33,762 nt of DNA from Geobacteraceae bacterium (GTDB taxonomy: Bacteria; Desulfobacterota; Desulfuromonadia; Geobacterales; Pseudopelobacteraceae): positions 1 to 33,762 of the forward strand of contig JANXZX010000080.1 in NCBI GenBank assembly GCA_025355325.1, in the 5' to 3' direction. Positions 2,831-18,121 of the stretch are shown here, piece after piece (position 1 is the stretch's first letter; each line of letters begins with the position of its first letter). A program made the position numbers and the translations under genes. The notes under the pieces were generated by a model. That model was not told the origin of the DNA. It worked only from the letters and a program-made list of their open reading frames with translations, and did no database searches.

Positions 2831-4270
2831 ATGAAATACCAACCCGTCATCGGTCTTGAAGTACACGTTCAGCTCCTGACCGACACCAAAATATTCTGCG
2901 GCTGTTCGACAACGTTCGGCTCCGAACCGAACTCCCAGACCTGCCCGGTCTGCCTGGGACTGCCGGGCGCTCTGCCGGTGCTCAACAAGAAGGTGGTGGA
3001 ATTCGCCATCAGGGCCGGTCTCTCCACGAACTGCTCCATCACGCCGCGCAGCATTTTCGCCCGCAAGAACTATTTCTACCCCGATCTTCCCAAGGGCTAC
3101 CAGATCAGCCAGTTTGAAGATCCGATCTGTCAACTGGGATGGCTCGATATCACGGTTGAAGGACAGGAGACGAAGCGGATCGGCATTACCCGCATCCATA
3201 TGGAAGAGGACGCCGGTAAGCTGGTGCATGGCGATTCCGATATGAACGATGGCTCGGGAGTTGACCTGAACCGGGCATGCACACCACTCCTGGAAGTTGT
3301 CTCGGAACCGGATCTGCGCACATCCGACGAAGCGGTCTCCTACCTGAAACAGCTGCACCAGATTGTTACCTGGCTCGGCATCTGTGACGGAAACATGGAA
3401 GAGGGAAGTTTCCGCTGCGATGCCAACGTTTCGGTTATGCCGGTCGGCTCAAGCACCTTCGGCACACGGGCCGAGATAAAGAATATCAACTCCTTCAAAT
3501 TCGTCAAACAGGCCATCGAATATGAGATTGAGCGCCAGATCGACCTGATCGAAGATGGCGGCACCGTCGTTCAGGAAACGCGTCTTTTTGATCCGAACAG
3601 TTGCACAACCCGTTCGATGCGGAGCAAGGAAGAGGCACATGATTACCGCTATTTCCCTGATCCCGACCTGGTGCCGCTGGTAATCAGCGACCAGTGGATC
3701 GAACGGGCGCGCCGGGAACTGCCGGAGCTGCCGGAGCAGCGCCAGCATCGTTTCATGACGGATCTGGGACTGCCGGCCTACGACGCCGAAGTGCTGACGG
3801 CAAGCCGGGCATTGGCCGATTACTTTGAAGCGTGTGTTGCCGCCCATGACAACGCCAAAGCGGTCGGCAACTGGATAATGGGTGAAATCACCCGATCCCT
3901 GAATGACAGCGGAACTTCGATTGAGGCCTGCCCGGTGACGCCCGCCCGACTGGCAGAGTTGTTGAAACTTATCGACAACGGCACCATTTCCGGCAAAATC
4001 GCCAAAACCGTTTTCGATGAGATGTGGAAAAGCGGCAAAACACCGCAGACCATTGTTGAAGAGCAGGGGCTGGTACAGGTTTCCGACATCGGCGCCATCG
4101 AGAGCATCATTGATGAGATTATGGCCGCCAATGCCGGTCAGGTGGAAGAGTATCGCGGCGGCAAGGAGAAGGTCTTCGGCTTTTTCGTCGGCCAGGTAAT
4201 GAAAGCCAGTAAAGGAAAAGCCAACCCGTCGGTAGTCAACGAACTGCTGCTGACCAAATTACAGGGGTAG
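2831..4270 (+). CDS. gatB: Asp-tRNA(Asn)/Glu-tRNA(Gln) amidotransferase subunit B
   Basis: tRNA-binding and kinase/transamidase subunit of GatCAB; activates the mischarged tRNA with ATP and accepts ammonia from GatA. The 479 residues start with the family sequence [13 protein letters not shown] and include four zinc-type cysteines (Cys23, Cys25, Cys38, Cys41 in CGC and CPVC). The C-terminal GatB/YqeY helical domain ends in [13 protein letters not shown]. The frame is open upstream to 2738 inside gatA, but the ATG at 2831 has a CCGGAG site just upstream and gives the correct start. The gap to gatA is 16 nt. Confidence 0.97.
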
Positions 4271-12416: not shown

Positions 12417-13805
12417 ATGAAAAGTAAAGGCAGCATACTGATAGTCGATGACGAAAAGGGACAGCGCGAGATCCTTAACCTGATCCTGAAAAAAGAGAAC
12501 TATGATGTCGTTGATGTGCCGGGGGTACGTGAGGCTCTGGTGCAGTTGGAGAAACGTGAATTCGACCTGATCATGACCGATCTCAAGATGCAGGGGCAAA
12601 GCGGACTTGACCTGCTGGAGAAGGTTCTGGCCGAGGACCCTCAGCAGTGCATCATCATGATGACAGCCCACGGCACAGTTGATTCGGCTGTAGAGGCCAT
12701 GCGCAAGGGAGCCTTCGATTACCTGGAAAAACCGCTTGAGCGCGACAATCTGGTACTGACGCTGCTGAGAGCCTTTGAACGCATCGGCCTGGTGCGTGAA
12801 AACCGGGTACTGCAAAAAAGAATCGAATCGATCGCGACGATACCGAACATGCAGGGCGAGCATCCTAAAATGAAGGAAGTTTTCCGCATTGTCGCCAAGA
12901 TCGCCCCCTCGAATTCCACCGTCCTGATTGTAGGTGAATCAGGAACCGGCAAGGAGCTGATTGCCCGGGCGATCCATGATGGGAGCCCCCGCCGGAACAA
13001 GCCGTTTATCGCCATCAACTGCGCCGCCATTCCGGACACCTTGATTGAAAGTGAATTATTCGGTCACGAAAAAGGGAGCTTTACCGGCGCCAACGCCCGC
13101 GAAATCGGCATATTCGAAGCTGCGGACGGCGGCACGGTGTTTCTCGATGAAATCGGCGAAATGAACGTTGCCATGCAGGCCAAATTATTGCGGGCCATCC
13201 AGGAAAAAGAAATCCGCCGGGTCGGCGGTAAAGTAAATATCGGCCTGGATGTCCGGTTGGTGTCAGCCACGAACAAAGAACTGGAACACGAGATAAAAAA
13301 GGGGCTCTTCCGCGAAGATCTCTTCTACCGCCTCAATGTTATCCGCGTCAACCTCCCACCCCTGCGCGAGCGGGGCAGCGACATCAAAACACTGGCAGAA
13401 TTTTTTCTGGAAAAATACAGCAAGGCAGCCGGTATCACCCTGGACGGCATCTCAAAACAGGCGCTGAAGCTGTTAATGAACTACAGCTGGCCCGGCAATG
13501 TCCGTCAGCTGGAATCGGTAATCGAGCGTTCGATACTGATGGCCGAAAGCAACTATATTGGACCGGATGACCTCCCGACCGAAATCACCGCCAGCGGTTC
13601 TCTGGCAGCAGGAGGTATCAACTTCGATCTTCCCGCAGATGGCATCGATTTTGAGGCGCTGGAAAAAGATCTGATCATCAAAGCAATGGAACGGGCTGAA
13701 TGGGTCATCGGCAAAGCGGCGCCGCTGTTGGGGATGAGCTACAAAACCCTGCAGTACCGTCTGGATAAATTTGCCATCGAGCGGCCGGAAAAGCGCTCCA
13801 GATAG
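12417..13805 (+). CDS. Sigma54-dependent response regulator (NtrC family)
   Basis: A 462-residue activator of RpoN-dependent promoters. Receiver domain with Asp11/Asp12 and acceptor Asp55 (LIMTDLKM); AAA+ domain with Walker A GESGTGKE, sigma54-contacting loop GSFTGA (Ser in place of the commoner Ala), Walker B GGTVFLDEIGEM and the arginine-rich PPLRERGSDI; and a Fis-type HTH at the C-terminus (GMSYKTLQYRLDKF). The ATG at 12396 overlaps the kinase stop (ATGA), but the ATG at 12417 has a CGAGGA site and starts directly before the receiver, so it is preferred. Paired with the upstream kinase; its target promoters are not evident here. Confidence 0.92.
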   Translation: MKSKGSILIVDDEKGQREILNLILKKENYDVVDVPGVREALVQLEKREFDLIMTDLKMQGQSGLDLLEKVLAEDPQQCIIMMTAHGTVDSAVEAMRKGAFDYLEKPLERDNLVLTLLRAFERIGLVRENRVLQKRIESIATIPNMQGEHPKMKEVFRIVAKIAPSNSTVLIVGESGTGKELIARAIHDGSPRRNKPFIAINCAAIPDTLIESELFGHEKGSFTGANAREIGIFEAADGGTVFLDEIGEMNVAMQAKLLRAIQEKEIRRVGGKVNIGLDVRLVSATNKELEHEIKKGLFREDLFYRLNVIRVNLPPLRERGSDIKTLAEFFLEKYSKAAGITLDGISKQALKLLMNYSWPGNVRQLESVIERSILMAESNYIGPDDLPTEITASGSLAAGGINFDLPADGIDFEALEKDLIIKAMERAEWVIGKAAPLLGMSYKTLQYRLDKFAIERPEKRSR

Positions 13806-13821
13806 AGAGTACCCGTCCGGC

Positions 13822-14379
13822 ATGAATAGTAACGTCCACAAAGTGCGTTTAAGCGAAATCTTTTTGACCTTCGCCAAAATCGGCCTGACCGGTTTCGGAG
13901 GCGGCATGGCCATAGTCGCGCTGGTAGAGCGAATCTGCGTACGCGAGAAGGAATGGATCTCTTCGGAAGAGTTCCTTCACGGGCTCGCCTTCGGTCAGAT
14001 TCTGGGCCCGTTTTCCCTCAATGTCTGTACCTTTACCGGTCACCACCTGCGCGGAATCCGCGGCGGGATTATTGCGTCTGTAGGATTTATATTCCCTTCC
14101 TTTCTGCTGGTATCGCTGCTCTCCTGGATTTACTTTACCTACCACAAACTGCCGCAATTGCAGGCCGCCCTTAAAGGAACCAACCCGGTTATCATCGGCT
14201 TGATAGTGGTGGTCGCCTTCGACATGGGGCGCAAGCAGATTAAAGGTACAACCGGAATCCTGATGGCGCTTGCCGCATTCGGCGCTTCGATATTCCTCAA
14301 GCTTAATGCCGCCTGGATCCTTCTGGGAGCAGCGCTCTGGTCATTGTGCCGCAGCTATTACCTCCGGAGGCTCAGCTGA
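13822..14379 (+). CDS. chrA: Chromate transporter family protein, N-terminal half type
   Basis: Half-size member of the CHR (chromate ion transporter) family, 185 residues from ATG 13822, with several hydrophobic helices. The N-terminal family motif is clear: FLTFAKIGLTGFGGGMAIV, then EFLHGLAFGQILGPFSLNVCTFTGHH (split here as EFLHGLAFGQILGP and NVCTFTG). Half-size CHR proteins work as pairs; the second half follows with a one-base overlap. Substrate is not proven: chromate efflux is the name-giving activity, sulfate or other anions are possible. Upstream in-frame extension to 13771 would overlap the regulator gene and is not favoured. It follows the regulator by 16 nt. Confidence 0.85.
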   Translation: MNSNVHKVRLSEIFLTFAKIGLTGFGGGMAIVALVERICVREKEWISSEEFLHGLAFGQILGPFSLNVCTFTGHHLRGIRGGIIASVGFIFPSFLLVSLLSWIYFTYHKLPQLQAALKGTNPVIIGLIVVVAFDMGRKQIKGTTGILMALAAFGASIFLKLNAAWILLGAALWSLCRSYYLRRLS

Positions 14380-14897
14380 TGGTTTCTCTGCTAACCCTGG
14401 CATGGATTTACTTCCGCATCGGCCTGATCTTTGTCGGCGGCGGCTACGTGCTGATTCCGCTCCTGAACCATATTATGGTTGAGCAATACCGTTGGCTGAC
14501 CCTGCGGCAGTTCCTCGACGGGCTGGCACTCTCACAGCTCACCCCCGGTCCGCTGGCGATGCTGGCCACCTTCACAGGTTTCCGCGCCGGCGGTTTTCTG
14601 GGCGGACTGGTCGCCACGGTCTTCATCTTCACCCCCTGCGTCATATTGATGCTGATCATCGGCCGCAACTACCACCGGCTGAAAAATATCGACATCATCA
14701 AAAACACCCTCGACGGCCTGCTTCCGGCGGTAGTCGGCCTTGTAGCGGCAGCAGCCTGGAACCTGGGGGTTTCATCACTCTCAGGGGTGAAAGAAATTAT
14801 CATTCTGGCAATCGGTTTTGCGATATTCAAATGGACGAAAGTCACACCGATGTTTGTTATTCTGGGAGCGGGAGTGGTGGGTTTGTTGCTGAATTAA
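14379..14897 (+). CDS. chrA: Chromate transporter family protein, second half
   Basis: Partner half-size CHR protein, 172 residues from ATG 14379. It shows the paired-half motifs YFRIGLIFVGGGYVLIPLL, LDGLALSQLTPGPLAMLATF and a hydrophobic C-terminus. The ATG overlaps the stop of the preceding gene (TGATG) and has GGAGG 8 nt upstream, so translation is coupled and a heteromeric transporter is likely. The hairpin terminator at 14925-14954 closes the transcription unit. A longer reading from 14346 lacks a ribosome-binding site and overlaps the first half. Confidence 0.88.
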   Translation: MVSLLTLAWIYFRIGLIFVGGGYVLIPLLNHIMVEQYRWLTLRQFLDGLALSQLTPGPLAMLATFTGFRAGGFLGGLVATVFIFTPCVILMLIIGRNYHRLKNIDIIKNTLDGLLPAVVGLVAAAAWNLGVSSLSGVKEIIILAIGFAIFKWTKVTPMFVILGAGVVGLLLN

Positions 14898-14924: not shown

Positions 14925-14954
14925 AAGGCATCCGGTTTCCCCGATGCCTTTTTT
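14925..14954 (+). terminator. Intrinsic terminator after the chr genes
   Basis: AAGGCATC (14925-14932) pairs with GATGCCTT (14943-14950), with GG/CC pairs inside the loop, and is followed by a run of T (14949-14954). It lies 28 nt after the second chr gene. It also covers the first in-frame ATG of the helicase gene (14944), which therefore cannot be the normal start of that gene. Confidence 0.8.
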
Positions 14955-14982
14955 CGTGCAGTGTGCTATGGTGCATGATCTT

Positions 14983-17484
14983 ATGGAAACTCAATTTACC
15001 ACTGATTGCCGCGCCCTGATGCGCCACGAAATTGCTGCTGCCGGCGGCAACGAGGTGTTCTTCATCGGGCGCACCAACGTGGACGGCATCGTCTACGAAG
15101 CAGAAACCATCGCCCGCGGCAACAAGGTTGCTGTCCCTGCCATCATCACCCGCGCCTCCGGCGGCGATGTCGTGATCCACAATCACCCCACCGGCGACCT
15201 GACACCCTCATCAGCAGATATGGACATCGCATCAGTCTGCGGCAATCAGGGGATCGGCTTTGCCATCATCGATAATCAGTGCAGCCGTTGTTATCAGGTT
15301 GTCGCCCCGTTTACCGAAAAAAAGGGCGAGCTCCTTTCTCTGGAAGAAATAGGCCGGATCTTTGCCGCCGATGGCATGATGGCTCACCTGAAAGGGTATG
15401 AGCAGCGAGATGAACAGGTACGTATGGCTTTTGCCGTCGCCGAAGCCTTTAACAATGACAAGGTCGTACTTGTTGAAGCCGGTACCGGCACCGGAAAATC
15501 ACTGGCGTATCTGATCCCGGCCATCCTCTGGGCGGTGCGCAATAATGAACGGATTGTCGTATCCACCAACACCATCAATCTGCAGGAACAGCTGATCAGA
15601 AAAGATCTCCCGTTTCTGGCACGAAACTCCTCTATCGAGTTCAAAGCGGCACTGGTCAAAGGGCGCAGCAACTACGCCTGTCTGCGCAAGCTGGAACATG
15701 CCGAAGCGGAACCGTCGCTGTTCCCGGATGAAGCATCTGCCGAACTGACTACCATCATCGAATGGAGCCATAGCAGTCAGGATGGCTGCCGGAGCGATCT
15801 GGCCTTTACGCCGCAAGCCGGTACCTGGGAAGAATTGTGCTGCGAAGCCGACCAGTGCGGCCGCTCGCGCTGCAAGCATTTCGGCCGCTGCTTTTTTTAC
15901 CGGGCACGGCGCGAATCATCAGCCGCGCGGATTCTGGTAGTCAACCACGCCCTGCTGCTGTCTGATATCGTCCTCCGCAAGGAGACCGGCTACGATGCAA
16001 CCGCTATTCTCCCCCCCTTTACCCGCCTGATTTTCGACGAAGGGCACCATCTTGAGGATGTCGCCACCAGCCATCTGTCGCTGACGATCACCCGGAGCGG
16101 GATACTGAAACAGTTGCAGCGCCTGGTGCCGCAAAAAGCCAATCGCGCCGGACTGCTGACAATCATTTCTTCCCGCATCGGACGCGATCTGCCGGAATCC
16201 CAGGAAGGGCTCTACGCCGAACTGTCTGGACTGCTGGAAAGCCACCTGCTCCCCAAAGCCCATGACCTGTCGGGGATGACCGAGCAGACGATGGATTGGC
16301 TGGCGTTCAGCGCAGAACATGACAGCGGCATCGCCGCCGGGCGCGAACAGAAACTGCGGCTCACCCCGGAGGTCGAGCGCACTCCGTTCTGGCAGGAATG
16401 CCGGCAAAAGCTGCATGCCCTGGCGGATGTCATAAATGATTACACCGCAGCACTCCGCACTCTGGTGCGGCGTTCGAAAGATCTGCCGGAAAAGTTGCAG
16501 GAAAAGTTGTCCGACCAACTGCTCGATACCAGCGGCATCGAAGGACGGCTACAGGCAATGGCGGATGCGCTGCTGTTTTTCACGACCGAGGCGGAGGGGT
16601 ATTGCCGCTGGATTGAAACCAAACGGGGCAGTCGCGGTGTTCAGGCACGGCTTACAGCAGCCCCGCTCGACATCTCCGCCCAACTGAAGGAAACGGTACT
16701 CGACAAACTCAAGACTATTATTGTCACATCGGCAACGCTGACGGTCGGCGGACAATTCGGCTATCTCAAAAAACGTACCGGTTTTGGGCTGCTCCCCCCT
16801 GCGCGTATATCGGAACTTCAACTGGCATCGCCGTTCAACTACGCCCGCCAGGTGTTTGTCGCCGTACCGGAAGACATGCCGGAACCAACAGCACCCGGAT
16901 TTCGTGAAGCTCTGGAACAGCATATCCTCCAGGCGGTTACCATCTCGCGCGGCGGCGCCTTTATCCTCTTTACCTCTTATGATCTGCTGGGTCGTGTTCA
17001 CCAGGCACTGTCACCGATACTGGCCCGTCAGGGGCTGACCGCTCTCAAACAGGGGGAAACCGGACGTCACACCCTGCTGACTCAATTCCGCAAGGAGGGG
17101 AACGCCGTGCTGTTCGGCACCGATTCGTTCTGGGAAGGCGTTGATGTTAAAGGGGAGGCGCTCAGACTGGTGATCATCGCCCGGTTGCCGTTTCAGGTAC
17201 CGACCGAACCGGTACAGCAGGCCCGCGCCGAAAAGATCAAGGCCGATGGCGGCGATCCGTTCCGCGATTTTTCCGTACCGCAGGCGGTCATCAAATTCCG
17301 CCAGGGTTTCGGACGGCTCATTCGGAGCCGCGATGATCGTGGCGCAGTGCTTATTCTGGACCGGCGCGTACTAAACAAAAGTTATGGCAGAATTTTTTTG
17401 CGCTCGCTGCCGGATACGGAAATTGTCAGAGGGGATTCAACAGGAGTGTTCAGCAGGATGGAGGAGTTTTTCAAAAGGACGTAA
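14983..17484 (+). CDS. JAMM (RadC/JAB-like)-DinG Fe-S helicase fusion
   Basis: An 833-residue two-part protein. Residues about 20-110 form a JAMM-type domain with Glu24 and the full metal signature HxHx7Sx2D (His66, His68, Ser76, Asp79; IHNHPTGDLTPSSAD), as in RadC. From about 140 follows a DinG/XPD-type superfamily 2 helicase: Walker A EAGTGTGKS (Lys172), four cluster cysteines Cys233, Cys292, Cys297, Cys303 with the C-x4-C-x5-C spacing of E. coli DinG, the DEGH box (FDEGHHLED, about 351) and motif VI FRQGFGRLIRSRDDRG. It likely unwinds R-loops, forked or damaged DNA 5' to 3'; the JAMM role is unknown. Starts at 14944 and 14968 are possible; 14944 lies in a terminator. No strong ribosome-binding site is seen before 14968 or 14983. 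Confidence 0.88.
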   Translation: METQFTTDCRALMRHEIAAAGGNEVFFIGRTNVDGIVYEAETIARGNKVAVPAIITRASGGDVVIHNHPTGDLTPSSADMDIASVCGNQGIGFAIIDNQCSRCYQVVAPFTEKKGELLSLEEIGRIFAADGMMAHLKGYEQRDEQVRMAFAVAEAFNNDKVVLVEAGTGTGKSLAYLIPAILWAVRNNERIVVSTNTINLQEQLIRKDLPFLARNSSIEFKAALVKGRSNYACLRKLEHAEAEPSLFPDEASAELTTIIEWSHSSQDGCRSDLAFTPQAGTWEELCCEADQCGRSRCKHFGRCFFYRARRESSAARILVVNHALLLSDIVLRKETGYDATAILPPFTRLIFDEGHHLEDVATSHLSLTITRSGILKQLQRLVPQKANRAGLLTIISSRIGRDLPESQEGLYAELSGLLESHLLPKAHDLSGMTEQTMDWLAFSAEHDSGIAAGREQKLRLTPEVERTPFWQECRQKLHALADVINDYTAALRTLVRRSKDLPEKLQEKLSDQLLDTSGIEGRLQAMADALLFFTTEAEGYCRWIETKRGSRGVQARLTAAPLDISAQLKETVLDKLKTIIVTSATLTVGGQFGYLKKRTGFGLLPPARISELQLASPFNYARQVFVAVPEDMPEPTAPGFREALEQHILQAVTISRGGAFILFTSYDLLGRVHQALSPILARQGLTALKQGETGRHTLLTQFRKEGNAVLFGTDSFWEGVDVKGEALRLVIIARLPFQVPTEPVQQARAEKIKADGGDPFRDFSVPQAVIKFRQGFGRLIRSRDDRGAVLILDRRVLNKSYGRIFLRSLPDTEIVRGDSTGVFSRMEEFFKRT

Positions 17485-17531: not shown

Positions 17532-18011
17532 TTACATTGATTTTATCTGTTTTTTTGCACTAAAGTTGAAACACTGGAAATACATCAGACAGGTCAGCAG
17601 AAACGAAAAAATCGTAATGGCAAGCACCGGCGTAACACCGGCCGCCTTTTTGGCGTCAGGCATCAGCATAATAAAGACCGCAAAAAACGCCACACCGCAA
17701 AATTTCCACAGATCTCCGATCAGGCGTTTCTTGCGCAGGGCCGCCAGCTGCTCTTTGGTAAGTTTTGGCGAACTCCCTTCAATTTCAACACCGGCATCAC
17801 GCCACGCCAGTTTGTAGACCGGCCATATCAGTACCAATTGACCGACAACGGAGAACAGAACACTGCGGATGAAAAGATCCGGCTTGTTCAGAGCAGCGAA
17901 CTTGCTCTGAAAAACAATCGCCAGGACAATCAACAACCCGGTTAAAATGGTCTGAACAATCCGGTATATCATCATCTGCCGGTTAAGTTTTTTGAAATCA
18001 TTGCTGGCCAT
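17532..18011 (-). CDS. Unrecognised four-helix membrane protein
   Basis: A 159-residue hydrophobic protein from ATG 18011, which has a GGAG site 9 nt upstream; an ATG six bases earlier is too close to that site. Four membrane segments are visible: IYRIVQTILTGLLIVLAIVF, the stretch from FIRSVLFSVVGQLVLIW, FCGVAFFAVFIMLMP, and TPVLAITIFSFLLTCLMYF. Between helices 2 and 3 is a charged cytoplasmic-looking loop (SSPKLTKEQLAALRKKRLIGD). I do not recognise the family and assign no function. It is divergent from the downstream kinase gene and has its own terminator, so it is probably a single-gene unit. Confidence 0.75.
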   Translation of the reverse strand: MASNDFKKLNRQMMIYRIVQTILTGLLIVLAIVFQSKFAALNKPDLFIRSVLFSVVGQLVLIWPVYKLAWRDAGVEIEGSSPKLTKEQLAALRKKRLIGDLWKFCGVAFFAVFIMLMPDAKKAAGVTPVLAITIFSFLLTCLMYFQCFNFSAKKQIKSM

Positions 18012-18121
18012 TGACATACACTCCGTAAGGTATTTATAACTAGTTACAGGAGCGCAAATGTACCAGAAAGCGGCCTGATTCACAAGCTCGCAAAGCGCAA
18101 ACGCCTCTTTTAGGATAATTT

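Follow-up and report, generated by a model that had tools for sequence, protein, structure and literature searches.

A RadC-like DinG protein of a Geobacteraceae bacterium joins a RadC-clade JAB/JAMM domain to a DinG/YoaA-type Fe-S helicase

The window analysed here is a whole stretch of 33,762 nucleotides (contig JANXZX010000080.1, forward strand) from the Geobacteraceae bacterium assembly GCA_025355325.1, and our subject is a gene in it that encodes a RadC-like DinG helicase. The product is a protein of 833 residues in which an N-terminal RadC-clade JAB/JAMM domain is followed by a complete DinG/YoaA-type iron-sulfur (Fe-S) helicase. The open reading frame at 14944-17484 on the plus strand has 846 residues and contains an in-frame ATG at 14983 that gives the 833-residue form. 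The start at 14983 is likelier than that at 14944 because the alignment to many relatives does not begin until residue 14 of the 846-residue form. Residues are numbered from 14983 throughout. The features are as follows.

14983..17484, plus strand: RadC-like DinG helicase gene, 833 residues (846 with the alternative upstream start at 14944)
14983..15360, plus strand: N-terminal RadC-clade JAB/JAMM domain, residues ~1-126 (Pfam RadC; AlphaFold2 (AF2) model; top Foldseek match 2qlc)
15052..15054, plus strand: codon of Glu24, the JAMM glutamate (E in 87/87 aligned proteins)
15178..15189, plus strand: codons of His66-Asn67-His68-Pro69, the H-N-H-P motif (H66 and H68 in 87/87; all four invariant in further alignments)
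15208..15219, plus strand: codons of Ser76 to Asp79 (S76 and D79 in 87/87)
15397..17481, plus strand: DinG/YoaA-type superfamily 2 helicase, residues 139-833 (Pfam, NCBIfam, structure matches, alignment to E. coli DinG)
15481..15501, plus strand: Walker A region GTGTGKS, residues 167-173 (T168, G169, G171 and K172 invariant in 41 sequences)
15679..15891, plus strand: stretch with the Fe-S cluster cysteines C233, C292, C297 and C303 (alignment to E. coli DinG; conservation in 41 sequences)
16924..17415, plus strand: Helicase_C_2 region, residues 648-811 (Pfam)

The fusion is real, ordinary for its clade and common among Geobacter relatives. Its architecture has already been published as the "RadC-like DinG" subgroup, of which this protein is a member (PMC11981726, 2025); according to that paper, there has been no experimental study of the subgroup. 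An earlier paper already notes RadC-DinG fusions (PMC5512222, 2017). What this analysis adds is a count of Helicase_C_2 proteins in the genome of the window, a quick tree, counts of separate RadC and HolC proteins, and the gene arrangement in one genome of the same family (G127).

An initial annotation of this DNA had proposed an intact JAMM signature made of Glu24, His66, His68, Ser76 and Asp79 in a domain nearest to RadC, and both proposals are borne out. Relatives were collected from 110 loci, to which a wider search contributed the best 80 of 584 relatives; removal of four partial proteins and 19 with an identical core left an alignment of 87 fused proteins, window included, in which all five residues are identical. 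By record titles, the best 80 of 584 relatives range from Geobacter relatives to Planctomycetota, Sumerlaeota, Auribacterota, Acidobacteria, Bacillota, Spirochaetia and Fusobacteria, and this taxonomically wide set consists mostly of metagenome bins. The lowest identity to the window protein in a 41-member alignment is 34%. His68 is followed after 8 residues by Ser76 and after 11 by Asp79, which are also the intervals of JAMM proteases, so that the domain holds the E, HxH, S and D set in JAMM spacing.

Assignment of this domain to the RadC clade rests on profiles and on fold. The Pfam RadC profile (PF04002) matches the whole protein at 23.0 bits and an E value of 8e-5, marginal but above the gathering cut-off of 22.1 and spanning only profile positions 11-88 of 121; the N-terminal piece alone scores 27.3 bits and 4e-6. 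At E 0.01, every one of the 37 proteins in the domain alignment matches Pfam RadC, and six of them also match Prok-JAB. Because all members match and the five residues are invariant, the RadC match is, as judged from the alignments, more than chance. The two NCBIfam RadC models stay far below their cut-offs of 180 and 133.85, with 24.7 and 20.0 bits for the N-terminal piece and 21.5 and 16.5 bits for the whole protein. We thus regard the domain as a divergent RadC-clade JAB rather than RadC proper. When the family profile is compared with solved structures, RadC 2qlc is found at 2e-7, followed at 0.22 by a JAMM protein from Archaeoglobus. Against the three free RadCs that the genome also encodes, profile comparison reaches a probability of 95.9 over 77 columns. 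The AF2 model of residues 1-150 has a mean predicted local distance difference test score (pLDDT) of 89.7, and Foldseek places five chains of 2qlc first, followed by BubCD, CSN5 and other JAMM/MPN proteins, although the TM-scores are modest (0.37-0.54 by query length) and the root-mean-square deviations large. The family profile and the fold search thus agree on RadC 2qlc as the nearest solved structure.

The rest of the protein is a complete DinG-type Fe-S helicase, as had been proposed. After RadC, Pfam finds DEAD, DEAD_2 (2e-4) and Helicase_C_2 (2e-48). The best NCBIfam score is to YoaA, at 577.7 bits against a cut-off of 680 and hence below equivalog level, and two DinG models reach 500.4 and 441.1 bits, below cut-offs of 789 and 598. 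The exonuclease/helicase models match the helicase part only. A full-length model (pLDDT 88.2, predicted template modelling score 0.81) has E. coli DinG 6fwr as its best structure match. C233, C292, C297 and C303 align with C120 of E. coli DinG and its C-x4-C-x5-C triplet; two of them (C297 and C303) never vary among 41 sequences, and the other two (C233 and C292) are conserved at 90% or more. The expectation that all four cysteines share the spacing of E. coli DinG holds for the triplet, which is identical, but not for the first interval, which is 59 residues here versus 74 in E. coli. The fusion protein is the only Helicase_C_2 protein found in its own genome.

The full protein is matched at E 0.001 in 137 of the 141 genomes of the order, G127 among them, and in all 103 with completeness of 90% or more and contamination of 5% or less; these are counts of the protein rather than of its JAB part. 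The idea that relatives share the arrangement is likewise confirmed in a second order of the class, where 57 of 58 genomes have a weak fusion-type RadC match; the matches in G526 and G540 do not reach the Pfam cut-off, and four of the 57 are in frames shorter than 800 residues (251, 469, 662 and 787). Within the whole phylum, 34 of 394 genomes contain a match to the domain profile at E 1e-12; 32 of the 34 matches are in frames of 845 residues or more, one in a frame of 517 and one in a frame of 200. By this profile and threshold, the profile containing about 10 helicase residues and so favouring fused forms, the JAB type of the window appears to occur rarely if ever on its own. Helicase_C_2 is present in 80 of 148 genomes of the phylum, and many of the other helicases lie in frames of about 620-700 residues, with some longer. 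Two DinG-type helicases in long frames (G163:C6:725148, 1353 residues; G191:C4:99491, 1185 residues) are perhaps other fusions.

A quick tree was made from 51 helicases, namely 34 fused, 16 lacking the JAB domain and that of G127. The JAB-less label rests on frame length and on the absence of a domain-profile match; the loci of these rows are cut 1.5 kb upstream of the C-terminal match, too close for a check of the loci to reach the domain. These rows all come from the phylum of the window, and neither E. coli nor Bacillus DinG was included as an outgroup. The JAB label requires two changes on this tree: a single fully supported branch sets off the 16 JAB-less rows, and G127 falls among the fused helicases, which otherwise stand together on one side. 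The pattern suggests to us an old fusion that arose once and a single loss, in G127, with the midpoint root leaving gain versus loss undecided for the deep change. Several independent fusions are unsupported by a tree with two label changes, and a second apparent JAB loss, in G571 (the one exception among the 58 genomes of the second order), was rejected since the match is cut where the contig sequence ends.

In G127 the DinG match begins at residue 115, and the helicase is kept from the linker on. The single PF04002 match of this genome is a canonical radC of 230 residues at L116:3433-4125, located after uppP, which ends 55 bases before the first ATG (L116:4181) of the JAB-less DinG on the same strand; a TTG start at 4106 from open reading frame prediction would overlap radC. 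Together, radC and the JAB-less DinG (L116:3433-6400) form a possible natural domain swap. Barring a misassembly at this point of the draft, which has about 70 contigs, G127 has lost the domain, and radC has come to lie next to DinG on its upstream side; the arrangement is seen in a single genome.

Genomes with the fusion nearly always keep a separate radC as well, a point the initial annotation had singled out for checking. The genome of the window has one canonical radC of 242 residues beside an uppP-like gene, plus two short radC genes. A RadC match at E 1e-30 or better is present in 95 of the 97 genomes of the order that are at least 95% complete, some of which perhaps have a short mobile-type copy only; in G079 and G018 the weak fusion match is the sole RadC match. 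HolC was not found in any of these 97 genomes (0/97 at E 0.001), in agreement with PMC11981726, while E. coli and Caulobacter were positive among 14 control genomes. Two genomes of the window's genus (G102 and G111) have 18 and 10 RadC-domain matches, an expansion perhaps carried by mobile elements.

In some genomes the separate radC lies in the same region as the fusion. In one family of the second order (f5), six of eight genomes (G290, G247, G471, G517, G562 and G571) carry radC after the fusion, on the same strand and no more than about 5 kb away; in G567 the two are on different contigs, and no strong radC was found in G557. Among 27 genomes of at most seven contigs, 15 have radC no more than 125 kb from the fusion (random expectation 6%) and seven no more than 20 kb from it (random expectation 1%), while in 12 the distance is 171 kb to 1.2 Mb. 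These figures come from related genomes, so that the 15 are not independent events, and from rounded genome sizes, with cuts chosen after the distances were known, the strongest RadC taken where there were several, and G047, which has no listed radC place, left out. The proximity shows an old regional linkage, not function. At two further loci (L110 and L113) radC lies upstream on the same strand, and at L111 a piece of radC lies at the locus edge. A radC-like stretch with in-frame stops downstream of the fusion at L080:10326-10995 is either a decayed radC or the result of assembly errors.

Besides the helicase, no neighbour cluster occurs in more than 8 of 26 distant loci, and a neighbourhood conserved across phyla was thus not found. 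The Pfam neighbours at L100 and L113 are ordinary: histidine phosphatase, two-component genes, S-adenosylhomocysteine hydrolase, PSP1, methyltransferase, HD receptor, YbeY and phosphoribosyltransferase. The ten neighbours scanned with Pfam in the window encode chromate transporters, two-component systems, TatD, a PLD enzyme and two proteins without a match; in this Pfam scan, which did not extend to PADLOC or PHROGs, nothing points to a defence island or a mobile element. Just upstream of the fusion, two half-size genes for chromate transporters overlap (13771-14897), and downstream of it is an open frame of 183 residues on the minus strand (17532-18083) with no Pfam match at 1e-4. Control by the SOS response was also considered and rejected: a Geobacter LexA pattern, with one mismatch allowed, has 6 matches versus 7.3 expected, the nearest about 5 kb away.

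The alignments show that the JAMM set, the helicase and the Fe-S ligands are intact, and they indicate an old fusion kept under strong constraint. The fusion protein is the lineage's DinG/XPD-family helicase and probably a housekeeping protein. An enzymatic role for the JAB domain is suggested by the strict identity of the full catalytic set over large distances. The mechanism that would fit best is a metal hydrolase acting on a strand or protein roadblock exposed by the helicase. As expected for the DinG family, the helicase would move 5'-3' on single-stranded DNA; the JAB domain would bind a single zinc by means of His66, His68 and Asp79, use Glu24 as the base, and hydrolyse something that it meets on the unwound strand where a fork has stalled or an R-loop or lesion is present. 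Our preferred reading, held tentatively and as just short of probable, is that the JAB domain hydrolyses what it meets on the unwound strand and that nucleic acid is the favoured substrate. Nucleic acid appears likelier than protein because nuclease domains occupy the same place in other DinGs and because the domain has the H-N-H-P core of RadC. The same positional argument, leading from the nuclease place to nucleic-acid processing, is made in PMC5512222, and PMC3482391 gives RadC a nuclease role. The earlier suggestion that the fusion could give a clue to RadC itself stands as suggestive but is not new, as PMC5512222 drew the same clue.

The fold neighbours in the model search would favour peptide bonds as substrate, and this weighs against nucleic acid. 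The JAB domain could accordingly be imagined as a peptidase that cuts DNA-bound or crosslinked proteins met by the helicase or, in the manner of other JAMM enzymes, acts on a ubiquitin-like tag. A full JAMM set in the classical spacing, the JAMM/MPN proteins listed after RadC in the fold search and the six of 37 members that also match Prok-JAB would all suit a peptidase, whereas the HNHP core is that of RadC, and RadC, according to PMC5512222, is unlikely to possess the groove for a ubiquitin tail; we consider a peptidase possible but somewhat doubtful. It is unlikely that the JAB domain and canonical RadC share their chemistry, such that the fused copy is a RadC-type activity tethered to the helicase and replaceable by free RadC. 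This would account for G127, where the JAB domain is missing and a canonical radC lies directly upstream of DinG, and the 15 of 27 near-closed genomes with radC within 125 kb, related as these are, would agree with it. However, the swap is seen in one draft that may be misassembled, the separate RadC in 95 of 97 genomes argues for separate roles, and the likeness to free RadC is limited to 77 columns. A non-catalytic JAB domain, in which the metal gives shape to a docking or regulatory module while the helicase does the work, is similarly improbable, for although G127 manages without the domain, a scaffold would not need Glu24, the presumed base rather than a ligand, to be invariant with four other residues in 87 of 87 proteins.

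A bolder proposal, and a slightly less likely one still, is that one activity, directed at a substrate opened by a DinG/XPD helicase, exists in two interchangeable forms, the fused JAB domain and free RadC, with G127 as the natural swap. If true, RadC would be a helicase-assisted hydrolase. RadC-clade JAB domains, found widely in bacteria, lack an agreed activity; a JAB domain tied to a helicase of a well-studied family and having an invariant active site is a good test system, since the helicase suggests the assay substrate. Additionally, the G127 arrangement suggests a genetic test for a role common to RadC and the fused domain.

Comparison with known systems places the protein among the RadC-like DinGs. 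Canonical RadC (2qlc, and the copy in L001 of the same genome) shares the JAB fold and the HNHP..PS..D core with the window domain. In the latter, neither the N-terminal part of the 242-residue RadC nor its PREVF stretch is present, and the final quarter of the RadC domain profile is unmatched. E. coli DinG (6fwr) shares the helicase fold and the four Fe-S cysteines. YoaA gives the best NCBIfam score, yet its equivalog cut-off is not reached and its partner HolC was not found in the order. Neither E. coli DinG nor YoaA is known to have a JAB domain. The exonuclease-DinG of S. aureus (8zef, 9ii8; PMC12345164) has the same helicase with an extra enzyme domain at the same N-terminal place, a 3'-5' exonuclease where the window protein has JAB, as had been foreseen; its match to the window helicase begins after 247 residues of other sequence. 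It has no cysteines aligned with the four of the window protein, on whose N-terminus Pfam and NCBIfam in turn find no exonuclease family. In contrast, no difference in kind separates the window protein from the RadC-like DinG of Desulfuromonas soudanensis, which was compared by description (PMC11981726). That protein has an N-terminal RadC-like domain with a conserved E, two H and D, as in the window, and an Fe-S DinG helicase said to resemble YoaA, in hosts without HolC. All these traits recur here: the RadC-like domain with E/H/H/D, the four-cysteine Fe-S helicase with its best score to YoaA, and an order without detected HolC.
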